The notes beneath the pieces were generated by a model. That model searched no databases, was not told where the DNA came from, and was given only the letters and a program-made list of their open reading frames with translations. Below are positions 6,298 through 36,057 of a stretch of DNA of 64,000 bases, piece by piece. Positions within the stretch are counted from its first letter, which is position 1. Every line of letters starts with the position of its first letter. Both the position numbers and the translations under genes were made by a program. This stretch comes from Mixta sp. Marseille-Q2659 (GTDB lineage: Bacteria; Pseudomonadota; Gammaproteobacteria; Enterobacterales; Enterobacteriaceae): the NCBI RefSeq assembly GCF_940807255.1, contig NZ_CALNWY010000019.1, forward strand, positions 1 through 64,000, written 5' to 3'.

Positions 6298-7263
6298 TTA
6301 CGCAAGTTTTTCGAAGTATGCCTCCAACGCCTCCAGCTGTTCGCTGGCATCCTCTATGGCGTTGAATGTGCGCCGAAACTGGTCGTTCGGGGCGTTCTCC
6401 TGGAGATACCAGGAGACGTGTTTTCGTGCAATACGGTATCCCTTGCCGTGACCGTAAAAGTCGTGCAGTTCCCGTATATGCCCGATTAGCAAGCGCTTCA
6501 CTTCTGCCAGCGGCATGGGTGGGAGCAACTCCCCAGTGTCCAGATAATGCTGGATTTCCCGGAAGATCCACGGTCTTCCCTGAGCGGCACGGCCTATCAT
6601 CAGAGCGTCAGCTCCCGTATAGTCGAGTACCGCCCTGGCCTTGTGCGGGTCAGTAATGTCTCCGTTCGCGATAACCGGAATGGAAACGTTCTGCTTAACT
6701 GTCCGAATGCTGTCGTATTCAGCATTGCCGTTGAACAAACAGGCGCGGGTACGTCCATGAATGGTCAAAGCCTGGATACCACAACGTTCAGCCAATTGGG
6801 CAATTTCAGTGCAATTACGATTGTCTCTATCCCAGCCGGTACGAATCTTTAAGGTAACCGGCACCTCTACGGCATTAACCACGGCGGTAAGAATATTCTT
6901 CACCACATCGGGATATTGCAGCAGCGCGGAGCCTGCCATCTTACGATTAACCTTTTTGGCCGGGCAGCCCATATTAATGTCGATAACCTGTGCGCCGGAT
7001 GCCACATTAATCCGGGCCGCTTCAGCCATCTCATCAGGATCGCAACCGGCAATCTGCACGGCACGAATTCCGGGCTCGTCACTATGAACCATGCGCAAAC
7101 GAGACTTATCGCTGGCCCAAACTTCTGGGTTCGACGACATCATCTCAGAAACGGTCATCCCGGCCCCCATCTGATAACAAAGCGTTCTGAAAGGCCTGTC
7201 AGTAATACCGGCCATCGGAGCGGCTATCAGTTGATTACGGAGCTGGTGTTGTCCAATGCGCAT
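6298..7263 (-). CDS. dusB: tRNA-dihydrouridine synthase B
   Basis: 321 aa FMN-dependent enzyme that reduces uridine to dihydrouridine in the tRNA D-loop (position 17 in E. coli). The N-terminal TIM barrel begins with [12 protein letters not shown]; the catalytic cysteine is Cys100 in NMGCPAKKV, and the phosphate-binding region [11 protein letters not shown] is near residue 225. First gene of the dusB-fis operon. In E. coli prmA lies directly upstream, but here cah separates them. Confidence 0.97.
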
Positions 7264-7299
7264 GAAAAGAAGTGACCGTATCTACTCGCAAGGCGGCGT

Positions 7300-7328
7300 A
7301 TATTACGCATTTTTTAATGAAGATGAAA
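7300..7328 (-). promoter_or_regulatory. Promoter of the dusB-fis operon
   Basis: On the minus strand TTTCAT (7323-7328) and TAATAT (7300-7305) are 17 bp apart and followed by a GC-rich discriminator (ACGCCGCC). This arrangement is as I know it from the E. coli fis promoter, which starts at a C and is under stringent control. The 301 bp between dusB and cah hold this promoter and AT-rich DNA suitable for Fis and IHF binding; I see no gene there. Confidence 0.8.
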
Positions 7329-7564
7329 GGCCAAACTTTGAACAATCAGCGGGTAAAAATCATGGAAAAGCCGGTTACTGTTTGACCCTTTAAACTTTAT
7401 CTTTAAAAAACATGACGTTAAAAATATAAGCCTGAATTGTGAGCAAAGATTTTTCTTAAAATGTGATCGCGTCGGCAGTATAAAAGCGCGTTTCCGACAG
7501 GTAAAACCAGAGGAACGACGTGAATAGCGCGCATCAAACTGGTCGTAATAACCACAAAAACGCC

Positions 7565-18536: not shown

Positions 18537-19884
<1,348 letters not shown>

Positions 19885-19954
19885 TCTGCCAGAAGGGGAG
19901 CGACGGGCGAAAGCCACGCTCCCTCTTCTTGATGTCGGGGAATACGCAGAGTTT

Positions 19955-21085
19955 ATGAAGCCAATTTTCAGCAGGGGGCCCTCCTTGCAGCTCCGCCTTT
20001 TTCTGGCGGTTATCGTGGCCATCGGCATTATTGTTGCCGACAGTCGCGTGGGTTCGTTTACCCAAATCCGTAACTACATGGACACGGCGGTAAGTCCATT
20101 CTATTTTCTGGCCAACGGGCCACGACAGATTCTGGACAGCGTTGCGGAAACGCTGGCCTCTCGCCAGCAGCTGGAGCAGGAAAATAAAGCGCTACAGCGC
20201 GAACTGTTTCTGAAAAACAGCGAACTGCTGATGCTGGGACAATACCGGCAGGAAAACGCGCGTCTGCGCGAACTGTTAGGCTCGCCGCTGCGTCAGGACG
20301 AGCAAAAAATGGTGACGCAGGTGATTTCCACCGGCACCGATCCCTATACCGATCAGGTGGTTATTGATAAAGGCAGCGTCAACGGCGTTTATGAAGGGCA
20401 GCCGGTTATTAGCGATAAAGGCGTAGTCGGCCAGGTCATTGCGGTAGGGCAAATGACCAGCCGCGTGCTGCTGATTTGCGATGCTTCCCATGCACTGCCG
20501 ATTCAGGTATTGCGTAATGATATTCGTGTGATCGCCGCGGGCAACGGCTGCACGGAAGATCTGCAGCTGGAACATCTGCCGGGCAATACCGATATTCGCG
20601 TGGGCGATGTGCTGGTGACCTCCGGGCTCGGCGGCCGCTTCCCGGAAGGTTATCCGGTCGGCGTGGTGTCGTCCGTGAAGGTCGATACGCAGCGCGCCTA
20701 TACTGTTATTCAGGCGAGGCCGACGGCCGGGCTTCAGCGTCTGCGCTATCTGCTGCTGCTGTGGGGCGCGGATCGTAACGGCGATCTGCCGATGGCGCCG
20801 GATGAGGTGCATCGGGTTGCGAATGAGCGTCTTATGCAAATGATGCCGCAGGTGCTGCCGCCTGCGGGAGAGATGGGGCCGCCGCTACCGCCAGAGGTAC
20901 AAAATGCGCCAGCGGGAAGTGCCGCGCCCGCCAACGGCGCAGCGGTAAGCAACCCGACCGTCACGCAAAATAATCAGTCTGGCGCGCAGGGACGTCAACC
21001 CGCGACATCGGCCACAAACCCATCCGCTAACCCGCGTAATCAAGCGGCAGGCAGCCGACCTGTGACACAGGGAGGCCAACCTTGA
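19955..21085 (+). CDS. mreC: Rod shape-determining protein MreC
   Basis: 376 aa. One N-terminal membrane helix ([16 protein letters not shown]), a coiled coil around residues 65-105, and a periplasmic beta-barrel domain. The C-terminal 70 residues are rich in Pro, Ala, Gln and Asn, longer and more repetitive than in E. coli (367 aa). MreC dimers bind PBP2 and RodA partners to activate cell-wall elongation. It follows mreB by 70 bp; its stop overlaps the mreD start by four bases. Confidence 0.97.
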
Positions 21086-21578: not shown

Positions 21579-22166
21579 ATGCTATCCCTTTATCTTGCCT
21601 CCGGTTCACCGCGTCGTCGTGAACTGCTGACGCAGCTTGGCCTGCATTTTGAGCGCGTCATCACTGACGTGGAAGAGCTGCGTCGCGAGGAGGAGAGCGC
21701 GCAGCAGTATGTCCGTCGGCTGGCACGAGAAAAAGCGCAGGCGGGCGTGGCAGCCGCGCCGCAGGATCTGCCGGTGCTGGGTGCGGATACCATTGTGGTG
21801 CTGAATGGCGAAGTGCTGGAAAAACCGCACGATGCGCGTCACGCGGCGGATATGCTCGCACGCCTCTCTGGGAAAACGCATCAGGTTATGACGGCGGTGG
21901 CGCTGGCCGATCGTCAGCGTGAACTGGATTGTCTGGTGATAACGGAAGTGACCTTCCGTTTGCTGACACCGCAGGATATTCACGACTATATCGCCAGCGG
22001 CGAACCGATGGATAAGGCGGGCGCCTACGGTATTCAGGGGCTTGGCGGCAATTTTGTCAGAAAAATTAACGGAAGCTATCATGCTGTGGTTGGCCTGCCG
22101 CTGGTGGAAACCGGCGAACTGTTCAGTCATTTTCAATCATTGCGTGAGGTAGGTAAGGGGACATGA
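21579..22166 (+). CDS. yhdE: Maf-like nucleoside triphosphate pyrophosphatase, dTTP/UTP type
   Basis: 195 aa. Maf family signature [10 protein letters not shown] at residues 7-16, [17 protein letters not shown] and the [17 protein letters not shown] block. It hydrolyses dTTP, UTP and modified pyrimidine nucleotides, probably as house-cleaning. The ATG at 21579, 8 bp after mreD, is preferred over upstream in-frame starts inside mreD. Its stop overlaps the rng start (ATGA). Confidence 0.95.
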
Positions 22167-23634
22167 TGACGGCTGAGCTACTGGTTAACGTTACGCCATC
22201 GGAAACGCGCGTAGCCTATATTGACGGCGGAATCCTGCAAGAAATCCATATTGAACGTGAAGCGAAGCGCGGTATTGTCGGTAATATTTATAAAGGCCGC
22301 GTAAGCCGCGTCTTGCCGGGAATGCAGGCGGCGTTTGTCGATATTGGTCTGGAAAAAGCGGCGTTTCTGCACGCCTCCGACATCATGCCGCATACAGAAT
22401 GCGTGGCGGGCGAAGAGCAAAAAAACTTTAGCGTCCGGGATATTGCCGAGCTGGTGCGCCAGGGACAGGATCTCATGGTGCAGGTGGTGAAAGATCCGCT
22501 GGGCACCAAAGGCGCGCGCCTGACGACAGATATTACATTACCTTCGCGTTACCTGGTTTTTATGCCCGGCGCCTCGCACGTTGGCGTATCGCAGCGCATT
22601 GAAAGCGAAGCGGAACGCGATCGCCTGAAGGCGGTGGTTTCGGCCTACTGCGATGAGCAGGGCGGATTTATTATTCGCACCGCGGCGGAAGGTATTGGCG
22701 AAGAAGAGCTGGCGCAGGATGCCGCCTTTCTTAAACGCCTGTGGACGAAAGTCATCGAGCGTAAAAAACGCAATAAAACCCGCTGCCGTCTTTATGGCGA
22801 ACTGGCGCTGGCGCAGCGCGTGCTGCGTGATTTCGCCGGCGCCGCGCTCGATCGTATTCGCATCGATTCACGCCTGACTTATGAACTGCTGCTGGAATTT
22901 ACCTCTGAATATATGCCAGAGATGACTGCCAAACTGGAGCTTTACAGTGGGCGTCAGCCGATTTTCGATCTTTATGATGTGGAAAATGAAATTCAGCGTT
23001 CGCTCGATCGTAGGTCGAGCTTAAATCGGGCGGTTACCTGATTATCGATCAGACTGAAGCGATGACCACTATCGATATTAATACCGGCGCCTTTGTCGGC
23101 CATCGCAATCTCGATGAAACCATTTTTAATACCAATATCGAAGCGACGCAGGCGATTGCGCGCCAGCTGCGGCTGCGTAATCTCGGCGGCATTATCATCA
23201 TCGACTTTATCGATATGAATAATGAAGAGCATCGCCGCCGCGTGTTGCACTCACTGGACAGCGCGCTCAGTAAAGATCGGGTGAAAACCAGTATTAACGG
23301 TTTCTCGGCGCTGGGGCTGGTGGAGATGACGCGCAAGCGTACCCGCGAAAGCATTGAGCATGTGCTGTGCCAGGATTGTCCGGTTTGCAAAGGGCGCGGC
23401 ACGCTGAAAACGGTAGAAACTGTCTGCTACGAAATTATGCGGGAAATTGTGCGTGTGCATCACGCCTACGACTCCGATCGCTTCCTGGTCTATGTTTCGC
23501 CAAGCGTGGGCGAAGCGCTGAAAAGTGAAGAATCGCATGCGCTGGCCGAAGTGGAGCTATTTGTCGGCAAGCAGGTTAAGGTGCAGATCGAGCCGCTCTA
23601 TACCCAGGAGCAGTTCGACGTGGTGATGATGTAA
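22163..23634 (+). pseudogene. rng: Ribonuclease G, frameshifted
   Basis: The reading frame is split. Codons 1-283 encode the S1 and RNase H-like N-terminal part of RNase G. At about 23012 the frame shifts, giving a stop at 23039-23041 (292 aa). The rest, from SGGYLIIDQTEAMTTIDINTG to the C-terminus QFDVVMM, continues in the other frame to 23634. Family comparison expects CGT-AAG-GTC-GAG where the window reads CGTAGGTCGAG, so one A is missing. With it restored the protein is 490 aa (E. coli 489). The truncated product lacks the catalytic aspartates (TIDINTG, IIDFIDM) and the zinc-link CPVCKGRG. No slippery heptamer is visible. RNase G trims 16S rRNA 5' ends and is dispensable in E. coli. Confidence 0.9.
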
Positions 23635-29185: not shown

Positions 29186-30106
29186 TTAACCGCCGTTGCG
29201 GTGTTCCTGATAAATTTGCGCCACTTTTTTGAACCAGGCGCTGAGATAATCGATACAAACCTGAACTTTTAACGGCAGCTTATCTTTCTGCGTGTAGAGC
29301 GCATAAACCGGGCGCGGGTCGGACTGATAGCGGCTAAACAAAATCTCAACCTCGCCCGCCTTAATCTCATCAATCACCCACATCAGCGGCACATACGCGA
29401 TCCCGCAGCCCGCCTTTAGCCAGCGAATCAGCGTTTGTGAATCGTTAGTCACAAAGCGCCCCTGCGGCGAAAGATGCGTACTGATCCCTTCCGGTGCGAT
29501 AAGCTCGAAATCGCTGTCAGGCCGCACGCTGTATTCCAGCCAGGAAAAGTTAGCGATGTCGGCCGGTTTGTCGGGCGTGCCATGTTGCTCCAGATAGTGT
29601 TTCGCAGCGCACACCACCATCGGCATCGAACCGAGACGGCGGGAAAACAGGCTGGAGTCCTGCAGCGCCCCAACGCGGATCACCACGTCCAGCCCGTCGG
29701 CAATCAAATCCGGCGCCGGAATACCGGTAACCAGATTCACCGTCAGGCCAGGATATTCCTGCAGCATTTCCGCCGTCATGGTTGCCAGCACGTTCTGCGC
29801 CATGGTTGAAGAACTGCCAATGCGCAGCGTGCCAATTGGCGAGTTATTAAAGGCGTAAAGCTGTTCATGCACCTGATGCGCTTCGGCTAACATTCGTCGG
29901 CAGCCCTGATAATAGATGCGTCCCGCTTCGGTCAGCCCAATACTGCGCGTGCTGCGATTCAACAGCTTCACCTGCAGTTCATCTTCCAGTTTAGCGACAG
30001 TTTGGCTTATGGATGAGACGCTCATCTGTAGCTGACGCGCAGCGGCAGTAAATGAACCTAATTCAACCACTTTGGCGAAAACCGACATACCTTTGAGTCG
30101 TTCCAT
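29186..30106 (-). CDS. aaeR: LysR-type regulator AaeR
   Basis: 306 aa (E. coli 309). The N-terminal winged helix-turn-helix (GSFTAAARQLQMSVSSISQTVAKLE) is followed by a LysR effector-binding domain. It activates the divergent aaeXAB efflux genes in response to aromatic carboxylic acids such as p-hydroxybenzoate. Identity to E. coli AaeR is high through the DNA-binding domain and the DLIADGLDVVIRVGALQDSSLFSRRLG block. Confidence 0.95.
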   Translation of the reverse strand: MERLKGMSVFAKVVELGSFTAAARQLQMSVSSISQTVAKLEDELQVKLLNRSTRSIGLTEAGRIYYQGCRRMLAEAHQVHEQLYAFNNSPIGTLRIGSSSTMAQNVLATMTAEMLQEYPGLTVNLVTGIPAPDLIADGLDVVIRVGALQDSSLFSRRLGSMPMVVCAAKHYLEQHGTPDKPADIANFSWLEYSVRPDSDFELIAPEGISTHLSPQGRFVTNDSQTLIRWLKAGCGIAYVPLMWVIDEIKAGEVEILFSRYQSDPRPVYALYTQKDKLPLKVQVCIDYLSAWFKKVAQIYQEHRNGG

Positions 30107-30378: not shown

Positions 30379-30582
30379 ATGAGTGTGCTACCGGTTATCG
30401 TCATATTTGGGCTCTCTTTCCCGCCCATATTTTTTGAAATTATCGTTTCGCTTTTGCTGTTCTGGCTGGTACGTCGCGTACTGTTGCCGATCGGCCTGTA
30501 TGACTTTGTCTGGCATCCGGCGCTGTTTAATACCGCACTCTACTGCTGCCTGTTCTATTTAGTATCCTGTCTGTTCGTCTGA
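30379..30582 (+). CDS. aaeX: AaeX small membrane protein
   Basis: 67 aa, DUF1656 family, two membrane helices, start [20 protein letters not shown] as in E. coli AaeX. Its exact role in the AaeAB efflux pump is unknown. First gene of aaeXAB, nine bp from aaeA, divergent from aaeR. Confidence 0.95.
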
Positions 30583-30590
30583 GGTTATAA

Positions 30591-31523
30591 GTGAAAGCTC
30601 TAATAAGAAAAATTACGCGCTATGCCATTACGCTAATTCTGGTTGTCATCGCCGTGGTGGTGGTTTTCCGCGCCTGGGCTTTTTATACCGAATCGCCCTG
30701 GACGCGAGATGCTAAATTCGCCGCTGACGTGGTCGCTATCGCGCCCGACGTCACGGGCCTGGTGACCGATGTGCGCGTGCATGATAACCAACTGGTGAAG
30801 AAGGGCGAGGTACTGTTTACCATCGACCAGCCACGCTTTGAAAAAGCGCTGGATGAAGCGGAAGCGGATGTGCAGTACTACCAGGCGCTAGTTAATGAGA
30901 AACGGCGCGAAGCCGCCCGCCGTAATAAGCTGGGCGTGATCGCCATGTCGCGCGAAGCGATCGAGCAATCCAATAACGATCTGCAGACGGCTGAACACCA
31001 GCTGGCGAAGGCGCAGGCCTCGCGCGATCTGGCGAAGCTGGATCTGGAGCGCACGGTGATCCGCGCGCCGGCGAATGGCTGGGTCACTAACCTGAATGTC
31101 TTCTCCGGTGAATTTATTACGCGCGGTACCACCTCGGTGGCGCTGGTCAAACAGAATTCCTACTACGTTCTGGCCTATATGGAAGAAACCAAGCTGGAGG
31201 GCGTACGCCCCGGTTACCGCGCGGAGATTACGCCGCTGGGCAGCAATCGTGTGATGCTCGGAACGGTAGATTCCGTCGCAGCGGGTGTGACCAACAGCAG
31301 CAGCACCGTGGACAGCAAGGGCATGGCGACCATCGACTCGAATTTGGAATGGGTGCGCCTGGCGCAGCGTGTTCCGGTTAAGATCCTGCTCGATCATCAG
31401 CCGGGCAATCTCTATCCGGCGGGCACCACCGCGACCATCGTGGTGACCGGCGAGAAAGATCGTGAGCAGAAGCCGCAGTCGCCGTTAACCCGGTTGCTTC
31501 ATCGCCTGCGTGAGTTCGGTTAA
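30591..31523 (+). CDS. aaeA: Aromatic carboxylic acid efflux pump, periplasmic adaptor AaeA
   Basis: 310 aa, the same length as in E. coli. One N-terminal membrane helix, then a split lipoyl domain ([27 protein letters not shown] / [21 protein letters not shown]) around a coiled-coil hairpin, typical of membrane fusion proteins. It couples the inner-membrane pump AaeB to the periplasm and outer membrane. It is intact, although its partner aaeB is frameshifted. Confidence 0.96.
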
Positions 31524-31534
31524 GCGAGGGCGTG

Positions 31535-33497
31535 ATGCAGCTCGAACGGTTACGCTTCCCGATTAAACTGACGTTCGCCATTCTGACGGCGCTATTAATC
31601 GGCTTTCATTTTAATCTGGAAACGCCGCGCTGGGCGGTGATGACCGCCGGGATTGTAGCGGGCGGCACCGCTTTTGCCGCTGGCGGCTCCTTACTCCGGC
31701 GCGCTGCGTCATCGCGGTATATTGCGTATTATCGGGACTTTCCTTGGCTGCCTGGCGGCGCTGGTGATTATGATCGCCACCATCCGCGCGCCGGTGGTGA
31801 TGATGCTGCTCTGCTGTATCTGGGCGGGCGTTTGCGTCTGGCTCTCATCGCTGATCCGCGTCGAAAACTCCTACGCGCTGGGGCTGGCTGGCTATACCGC
31901 GTTGATTATTGTCATCAGCGTCGATCTCTCTGCGGAAACACCAATGCTGGCACCGCAGTTTGCCGTCGAGCGCTGCAGCGAGATTGTGATTGGTATTGTC
32001 TCAGCAATTCTGGCGGATATGGTTTTTTCGCCGCGCTCAATTAAAAAAGTCATTGATAAAGAGATCGAGACGCTGCTGCTTGAGCAGTATCGCCTGCTGC
32101 AACTCTGCGTAGCGCATGGCGATAAAGAGGAGGTGGATAAGGCCTGGAGCAACCTGGTACGCCGCACCACCACGCTTAACGGGATGCGCAACCAGCTGAA
32201 CATGGAATCCTCACGCTGGCAGCGCGCCAATCGTCGCCTGAAAGGGATCCATATGCTTTCGCTGACGTTAATTACCCAGGCGGCAGAAACCTTTCTGATC
32301 CAAAACTCCCGGCCGGAATATATTCCACCGCAGTATCGTGTACTACTGGAAAAGAATGCCGATAGCCTCAGCGATCTGCACAAGCACCTGAAGAACCTGC
32401 GACGCGTGGTCAGCGCTTCCGGCAGTAAAAGCACGCCGATTACGCTGGTCAGCTGGATTGGCGCCGCCACGCAATATCTGATGCTGTTAAAAGGCGTGCA
32501 AACGAACAGCAGCATTAGTCAGCAGGAGGAAGCGCTGCTGAGCAAAGAGGTGGAAGTGGTGCGCGCGCGATCGGCGGAAACCCATCACGCAATGATTAAC
32601 GGCATCCGTACTTTTGTGGCAACGGCGCTGGGCACGCTGTTCTGGTTGTATAGCGGCTGGACCTCCGGCAGCGGCTGTATGCTGATGCTGGCGGTGATTA
32701 CCGCGTTGGCAATGCGCGCGCCCAATCCGCTAATGATGGCGAAAGACTTTCTCTACGGTATGACGGTGGCGATTCCGCTTGGCGCGCTCTACTTTATGGT
32801 GATCATGCCCGCCACGCAGCAAAGCATGCTGCTGCTCTGTATTGCGATAGGTACGCTGGCATTTGTGGCCGGTATCTTTATTCAACGGCGGCAGATAGGC
32901 ACGCTGGGCGCCTTTGTCGGTACGCTTAACATACTGGTGTTGGATAATCCGATGTCCTTTTCGGTGGATGCGTTTTTGGATAACGCGTTGGGTCAGGTTA
33001 TTGGCTGTTTCGTGGCGCTGATGGTGATTCTGATTATTCGCGATAATTCACGGGCGCGTACCGGTCGCACGTTGCTGAACCGCTTTATGTATGCGGCGGT
33101 ATCGGCCCTGACGACCAATCAGGCGCGCCGTAAGGAAAATCATCTGCCCGCGCTCTATCAGCAGCTGTTCTTACTGCTGAATCTGTTTCCCGGCGACATT
33201 GATAAATATCGCCTGGCGCTGACGCTGATTATCGGACACCAGCGCTTACGTAATGCGGAGATCCCGGTAAATGCCGATCTGTCAGCGTTTCATAAGCAGC
33301 TGCGCTATACCGCAGATCGGGTTATCGCCTCGCGCAGCGACGAGAAGCGCCGCTATTACTATCAAAAGCTGCTGCGTGAGTTTGATACCTATCAGGAAAA
33401 GCTGCACCAGTATCAGGCGCCGCTGAGTGTGACCGAGCCGGTGCAACGCCTGGCCGATATGCTAAAAAAATATCAGAACACGCTGATCAATATCTGA
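31535..33497 (+). pseudogene. aaeB: Aromatic carboxylic acid efflux pump AaeB, frameshifted
   Basis: The first 50 or so codons encode the AaeB start ([20 protein letters not shown]...[15 protein letters not shown]). At 31685-31691 the frame shifts: after GGC-GGC a single T precedes CCT-TAC, where a whole codon is expected (E. coli has GG-E-PYSG). From [18 protein letters not shown] onward the rest of the protein runs in another frame to 33497. The net change is two bases missing (or one extra). Restored length is about 654 aa (E. coli 655). The body has two membrane blocks and a cytoplasmic domain of the FUSC/DUF type. A TTG inside the second frame could only give an N-terminally truncated product. 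The start codon is ATG 31535 (a GTG precedes it). Confidence 0.88.
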
Positions 33498-35459: not shown

Positions 35460-35723
35460 TTACTTGTAGAGTTCTGCCGTAGCATGCCAGCTGTCACCGC
35501 TGCGCGCTTCGATGACGCGATAAGCGCGGGCACCTTGCGCATCCGCTTTTTCAGAAAGCTGCGCACGATAATCCATGGGAGAGCCGCCAGTCCCGCTCAC
35601 GGTGATGATTCCCGCAGGCTGCAAATTCTGCGCCTCTTGCCGGGTAATCTGTTCAGCAGCGGTTGCGCCGAACGTTACCAGCGATAACAGGCCAAGAGCT
35701 TTAATAGCCGTTTTAATTCTCAT
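35460..35723 (-). CDS. yhcN: YhcN/BhsA-type (DUF1471) periplasmic stress protein, copy 3
   Basis: 87 aa. Signal peptide MRIKTAIKALGLLSLVTFGATA, then the DUF1471 pattern LQPAGIITVSGTGGSPMDYRAQLSEKADAQGARAYRVIEA and the ending HATAELYK. E. coli YhcN is 87 aa and linked to acid and peroxide stress. One of three tandem paralogues, all minus strand; a 64-bp gap separates it from the middle copy. Which copy is the orthologue of yhcN cannot be decided by reading alone. Confidence 0.88.
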   Translation of the reverse strand: MRIKTAIKALGLLSLVTFGATAAEQITRQEAQNLQPAGIITVSGTGGSPMDYRAQLSEKADAQGARAYRVIEARSGDSWHATAELYK

Positions 35724-35787
35724 TGTTCATCTCCTCCTGTGATCAACAACCTGCGGTTTACAACATCAAGACCGGGTTTTTGGGCAA

Positions 35788-36057
35788 TTATTTATAAATT
35801 TCAGCGGTCGCGTGATAGTTACCGTTGGCATAGGCCTCAATCACACGGTAGGACGACGCGCCTTCTTTATCCGCTTTTTGCGACAGATGCTGACGAATAG
35901 CGGTAGGGCTGGCATCGATACCGCTAACGGAGATCGTACCTATAGGTTGCAGGTTCTGGCTGACGACATCTTGTTGTGTGACCAGATCCGCGGCGGCTGC
36001 GCCGAATGAAAGGACGGAAGCCAGGCCTAAAGCAGCAAAGGTATAAGTGGTTTTCAT
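35788..36057 (-). CDS. YhcN/BhsA-type (DUF1471) periplasmic stress protein, copy 2
   Basis: 89 aa with signal peptide MKTTYTFAALGLASVLSFGAAA and the core LQPIGTISVSGIDASPTAIRQHLSQKADKEGASSYRVIEAYANG, ending HATAEIYK. It is the most divergent of the three copies (NGNYHATAEIYK in place of GDSWHATAELYK) and nearer to BhsA-like members by eye. Function unknown; family members respond to stress and affect the cell surface and biofilm. Confidence 0.86.
   Translation of the reverse strand: MKTTYTFAALGLASVLSFGAAAADLVTQQDVVSQNLQPIGTISVSGIDASPTAIRQHLSQKADKEGASSYRVIEAYANGNYHATAEIYK

Follow-up and report, generated by a model that had tools for sequence, protein, structure and literature searches.

The aaeB gene in the 64,000-nucleotide stretch of DNA analyzed here (the window) is broken by a change of reading frame at 31687/31688, where alignment with congeners leaves it a net two bases short. 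The window belongs to a Mixta draft genome (4,336,038 bases in 71 contigs), which was compared with seven genomes of the same genus (G001 to G007). Among these Mixta genomes the break was seen only in this assembly, and an error of the consensus sequence, introduced in sequencing or assembly, is marginally the likelier cause (probability of roughly 0.5). If so, the living bacterium would keep a normal AaeAB pump, controlled by AaeR and exporting acids of the p-hydroxybenzoate type. Nearly even with a consensus error stands a true frameshift of very recent date that inactivated aaeB in this strain or species; AaeR, AaeX and AaeA would then still be encoded, but the inner-membrane pump, and with it this export route for such acids, would be missing.

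Layout of the broken gene and its neighbors

The aaeB stretch runs from 31535 to 33497 on the plus strand (1963 bases), starting at ATG 31535, with GTG 31532 as a possible alternative. The 5′ piece (31535..31687, plus strand) holds 51 codons in frame and matches positions 2 to 51 of the NCBIfam AaeB model NF007916 (E = 3.2e-22). The 3′ piece (31689..33497, plus strand) lies in a different frame and consists of 602 codons (31689 to 33494) and a stop (33495 to 33497); by itself it matches positions 53 to 648 of the 648 in the model at 1059.5 bits (cutoff 870), so that the two pieces together tile the whole of it. No single continuous frame covers the gene, as the frame changes at the junction (31687..31688). 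Read onward from the start codon, the 5′ reading as given has 169 residues, namely the 51 residues of AaeB and then an off-family, out-of-frame tail (31688..32044, plus strand, with its stop at 32042 to 32044), and no stop interrupts the 602 codons of the 3′ piece after the break. A preliminary description had placed a frame break behind GGC-GGC, just after residue 50, and had allowed for either two missing bases or one extra. The place was confirmed, although 51 residues precede the break, and the alignment with congeners supports two missing bases and not an extra one. The same description had proposed an error in a run of C (CCCC shortened to CC), which the comparison does not support: six of the seven congeners have two C at the junction like the window, G006 has three, and within the 26 bases around the junction no base occurs more than 2 times in a row. 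This position outside long homopolymers counts against a consensus error, and a clean net two-base shortfall outside any homopolymer speaks for a true loss.

The genes adjoining aaeB proved intact, as had been claimed, each scoring above its NCBIfam equivalog cutoff over the full model, and their presence identifies the neighborhood as that of AaeB. They are aaeR, encoding a LysR-type activator (29186..30106, minus strand, 306 aa; NF007917, 631.7 bits with a cutoff of 425, positions 1 to 303 of 303), aaeX (30379..30582, plus strand, 67 aa; NF008615, 127.9 bits with a cutoff of 82, positions 1 to 67 of 67) and aaeA, encoding the periplasmic adaptor from a GTG start (30591..31523, plus strand, 310 aa; NF007850, 582.3 bits with a cutoff of 400, positions 1 to 303 of 303). 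That these partner genes are unharmed argues against a true loss of the pump. Elsewhere in the window, on the minus strand at 35460 to 36057, two small adjoining frames of 87 and 89 residues looked by eye like paralogues.

A search of the whole genome (all 4,336,038 bases on 71 contigs) found no second full-length AaeB. The only other matches were two stretches of 24 to 25% identity (one 694-residue frame on contig C11), and rescue by a second AaeB was rejected. If the break is real, the 169-residue product could hardly be a pump, and AaeB efflux would be lost, because only 51 of about 654 AaeB residues are kept and the genome has no other full-length copy.

aaeB among relatives and the age of the break

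aaeB was located in all eight genus genomes and forms one open frame in each of the seven congeners, G006 included. The open frames returned by the genus search measured 660 to 662 codons in the congeners versus 612 for the 3′ piece of the window, lengths counted more or less from one stop to the next and greater than those of the true genes. The matching gene is 1965 bases long in G005 and G002, 1968 in G007, G004 and G003 and 1962 in G001, and each of these six genomes carries it as one open frame of 653 to 655 residues. Protein identity between the 3′ piece of the window and the seven congeners was 91 to 95%.

Selection on the 3′ piece was assessed from dN/dS, which was 0.037, 0.045 and 0.038 for the window against G006, G005 and G002, compared with 0.040 to 0.080 among the pairs of those three genomes and 0.045 to 0.056 when the intact aaeA of the window was set against them. 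The 3′ piece gave 0.066 to 0.079 with the four congeners that are more distant, and 28 of the 37 changes found only in the window were synonymous. A pseudogene in neutral decay would show dN/dS moving toward 1 and further disabling changes; the closest comparisons gave 0.037 to 0.045, with 602 codons free of stops. An old pseudogene is thereby rejected, the 3′ piece being as constrained as in genomes where the gene is intact. Since the 3′ part shows no decay, the break is either very young, placed at the extreme end of the branch, or not biological. This agrees with the preliminary description, which had offered a recent loss or a sequence error; the undecayed 3′ part and the single frame in seven congeners uphold that pair of readings. 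Within it, the lack of any decay in the 3′ part weighs against a true loss.

A wider scan with intact AaeB covered 110 loci, some species being included twice, of which 100 were single-frame and full-length and 10 were flagged, among them the window's own. Three of the flagged loci carry a broken aaeB, and these favor a true loss: L089 (Pantoea rodasii LMG 26273) has a frame change at residue 623, at about 4701; L097 has two stops, although its source is a Pantoea metagenome bin; and the third is L027, although the completeness of its genome is rated at 49%. The other flags were dismissed, L028 to L030 as distant paralogues, L104 as a gene cut by a contig end, and L022 and L031 as tandem copies. 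The last two, both from G018, resemble aaeB and lie in tandem; their identity to the 3′ piece of the window is 61% and 56%. On the other side, most genomes retain aaeB: of 5426 complete E. coli genomes, 5374 matched a Klebsiella aaeB query at a cover of at least 80%, a count that concerns cover and not the frame. Taken together, aaeB is a stable gene that is occasionally broken in the record.

Frame breaks elsewhere in the assembly

The same assembly was scanned for further breaks in two whole contigs and portions of three others, 743 kb in all, which gave 297 coding-like genes that could be set against the complete congener G002. Internal frame breaks were found in 6 of the 297 (aaeB, rng, mlaC, hisD, an FAD oxidoreductase and a fructokinase), each of these genes being, on balance, one or two bases shorter than in G002. 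For the five other than aaeB the comparison took in a smaller set of genomes, or G002 only, which counts against a consensus error. The gene for ribonuclease G, rng (22163 to 23631 of the window), has a net one-base shortfall near 23011 to 23023, and its pieces match positions 1 to 286 and 284 to 489 of the NCBIfam RNase G model. On the aaeB contig beyond the window, mlaC (67103 to 67733; L138, 3103 to 3733), identified by NCBIfam, is a net two bases short, which alters only about its last 25 residues. On contig C11 of the window's genome (G000), small net deletions break two genes: hisD at about 98594 (L166), which NCBIfam identified from the copy in G002, and, at about 101502 (L167), a DAO-type FAD oxidoreductase (PF01266). 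The fructokinase (NF007108; G000 C2, about 19612, L176) is one base short versus G002, affecting about the last 30 residues, and the G002 copy matches positions 2 to 301 of the 303 in the model. No nonsense change was found inside a recognized gene among the 297 genes of the window's genome, and the sites of the other breaks that were printed all lie outside long homopolymers.

These counts depend on how the scan was sorted. The first frameshift scans returned many false entries, caused by shadow frames or by frames extending beyond the true start on its upstream side. In the comparison with G002 the genuine entries were picked by our own judgement, aided for part of them by family matches, and not by a blind rule. 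For the window's genome, 6 of 11 frame-change entries were kept and 5 dropped as upstream of the true start, and all 4 nonsense entries were dropped, two of them being upstream of the family match. The other two, in one 137-residue frame (78% identity), were taken for a shadow frame. Family matches placed the differences at 84173, 102230 and 111765 before the start of the family, and the entries at 111412, 121093 and 6799 were dismissed by eye. Also rejected were an apparent break in the minus-strand gene at 6301 to 7345, where the difference precedes its start, and those in the frame at 68086 to 68406 and the minus-strand frame at 19518 to 20242. For G002, all 7 frame-change entries were discarded, one of them mirroring the fructokinase break, and 8 nonsense entries in 7 genes left one, in a 1267-residue protein. 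The nonsense entries in cpxR and fieF of G002 have the stop before the start of the family, and a further dropped one lies upstream of a gene that we take to be mlaF.

The reciprocal scan thus left G002 with one clear break in 300 genes, a nonsense change at residue 1173 of the 1267-residue protein, which is intact in the window's genome (L178, 10649 to 14452), where the family match reaches residue 1253. Three further genes of G002, mreC among them, differ at the C terminus. Comparison of 6 of 297 with 1 of 300 broken genes was not significant (Fisher test, P = 0.068), nor does the difference sharpen with 5 versus 1 (P = 0.12); leaving out the nonsense change of G002 (6 versus 0) gave P = 0.015. 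The excess of frame breaks in the window's assembly is suggestive, and a break rate not significantly different from that of G002 is compatible with true losses. Over the 77 to 85 kb around aaeB, breaks relative to all four other genomes numbered three in the window's own assembly (rng, aaeB and mlaC, in its 77-kb contig), one each in G005 and G001, and none in G002 or G006. The separate breaks of G005 and G001 near aaeB count against a consensus error. G001 also has a stop in a 364-residue gene near aaeB versus three references.

What tilts the balance is the nature of the six breaks. True decay is expected to yield nonsense changes and insertions as well; here all six are small net deletions, with no insertion or nonsense change in the recognized genes, and hisD is included, all of which tells against a true loss. 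A truly broken hisD would mean histidine auxotrophy, which would be odd in a free-living bacterium. We infer that the small net deletions of this assembly share a technical cause, and we lean slightly toward a consensus error because only small net deletions are seen and because hisD is among the genes broken.

Rescue, loss and known parallels

A gene that still works because it is rescued in translation would need either programmed or leaky frameshifting or an internal start at TTG 31674, giving nearly full AaeB. In favor of this, the 3′ piece has no stop, selection holds it as tightly as in the congeners, and the TTG is in its frame. Nevertheless, rescue is highly improbable. The break occurs in none of the seven congeners, hence there is no conserved recoding site, and the RNA around the junction folds in an ordinary way (z = −1.13, with 28 of 200 shuffles folding as well). 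Only a G-rich stretch was seen by eye before the TTG, with no AGGAGG-like run, and a start there would drop the first 46 or so residues of AaeB, probably a membrane segment. A programmed frameshift gene was accordingly rejected, all seven congeners being single-frame and the fold ordinary.

Work on E. coli bears on how readily the pump could be lost. There, p-hydroxybenzoate and p-coumarate act as inducers of aaeXAB, and induction requires AaeR (PMC9301823). Cells deleted for aaeB still grow, and their greater sensitivity to p-coumaric acid is confined to the two higher doses tested (PMC9301823), and E. coli without aaeB has a lower tolerance to vanillin (PMC6561319). The gene is thus dispensable in E. 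coli on the evidence of both reports (PMC9301823, PMC6561319), which favors a true loss in Mixta. It is also among the genes mutated in evolved E. coli, in one strain (PMC12196164). Absence of the pump can also be an advantage: inhibition of E. coli without aaeB takes several times as much of the antibiotic DHB (PMC11481567), again in keeping with a true loss. By analogy with this protection from DHB (PMC11481567), the break might be not only true but advantageous, recent loss of AaeB having been selected, for example, through 4-hydroxybenzoate retained against an antibiotic that competes in ubiquinone synthesis; we consider such selection very unlikely. Among the literature matches listed for pseudogenes, nothing on the genus Mixta was recognized.

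The practical consequence is mostly one of caution, in that single-genome breaks in conserved genes of this draft should not be taken for gene losses until the reads have been inspected. Were the break true, aaeB would be a further case of an export pump that is not essential and was recently lost, and the bacterium would be predicted to be more sensitive to phenolic acids.

The locus resembles the E. coli aaeR/aaeXAB locus in its genes and their order, with aaeR divergent from aaeX, aaeA and aaeB, the layout described for E. coli in PMC9301823, and aaeR, aaeX, aaeA and the 3′ piece of aaeB each score above the NCBIfam equivalog cutoff. It differs from the E. coli locus in that aaeB is split over two frames. 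In this respect it resembles the single-genome frameshifted genes of draft genomes, with a break in one of eight genus genomes, a small indel and the rest of the gene under normal constraint. Nothing sets the aaeB of the window apart from such genes, be they young pseudogenes or consensus errors, and whichever the cause, a frame-broken aaeB is an ordinary matter of a known kind.
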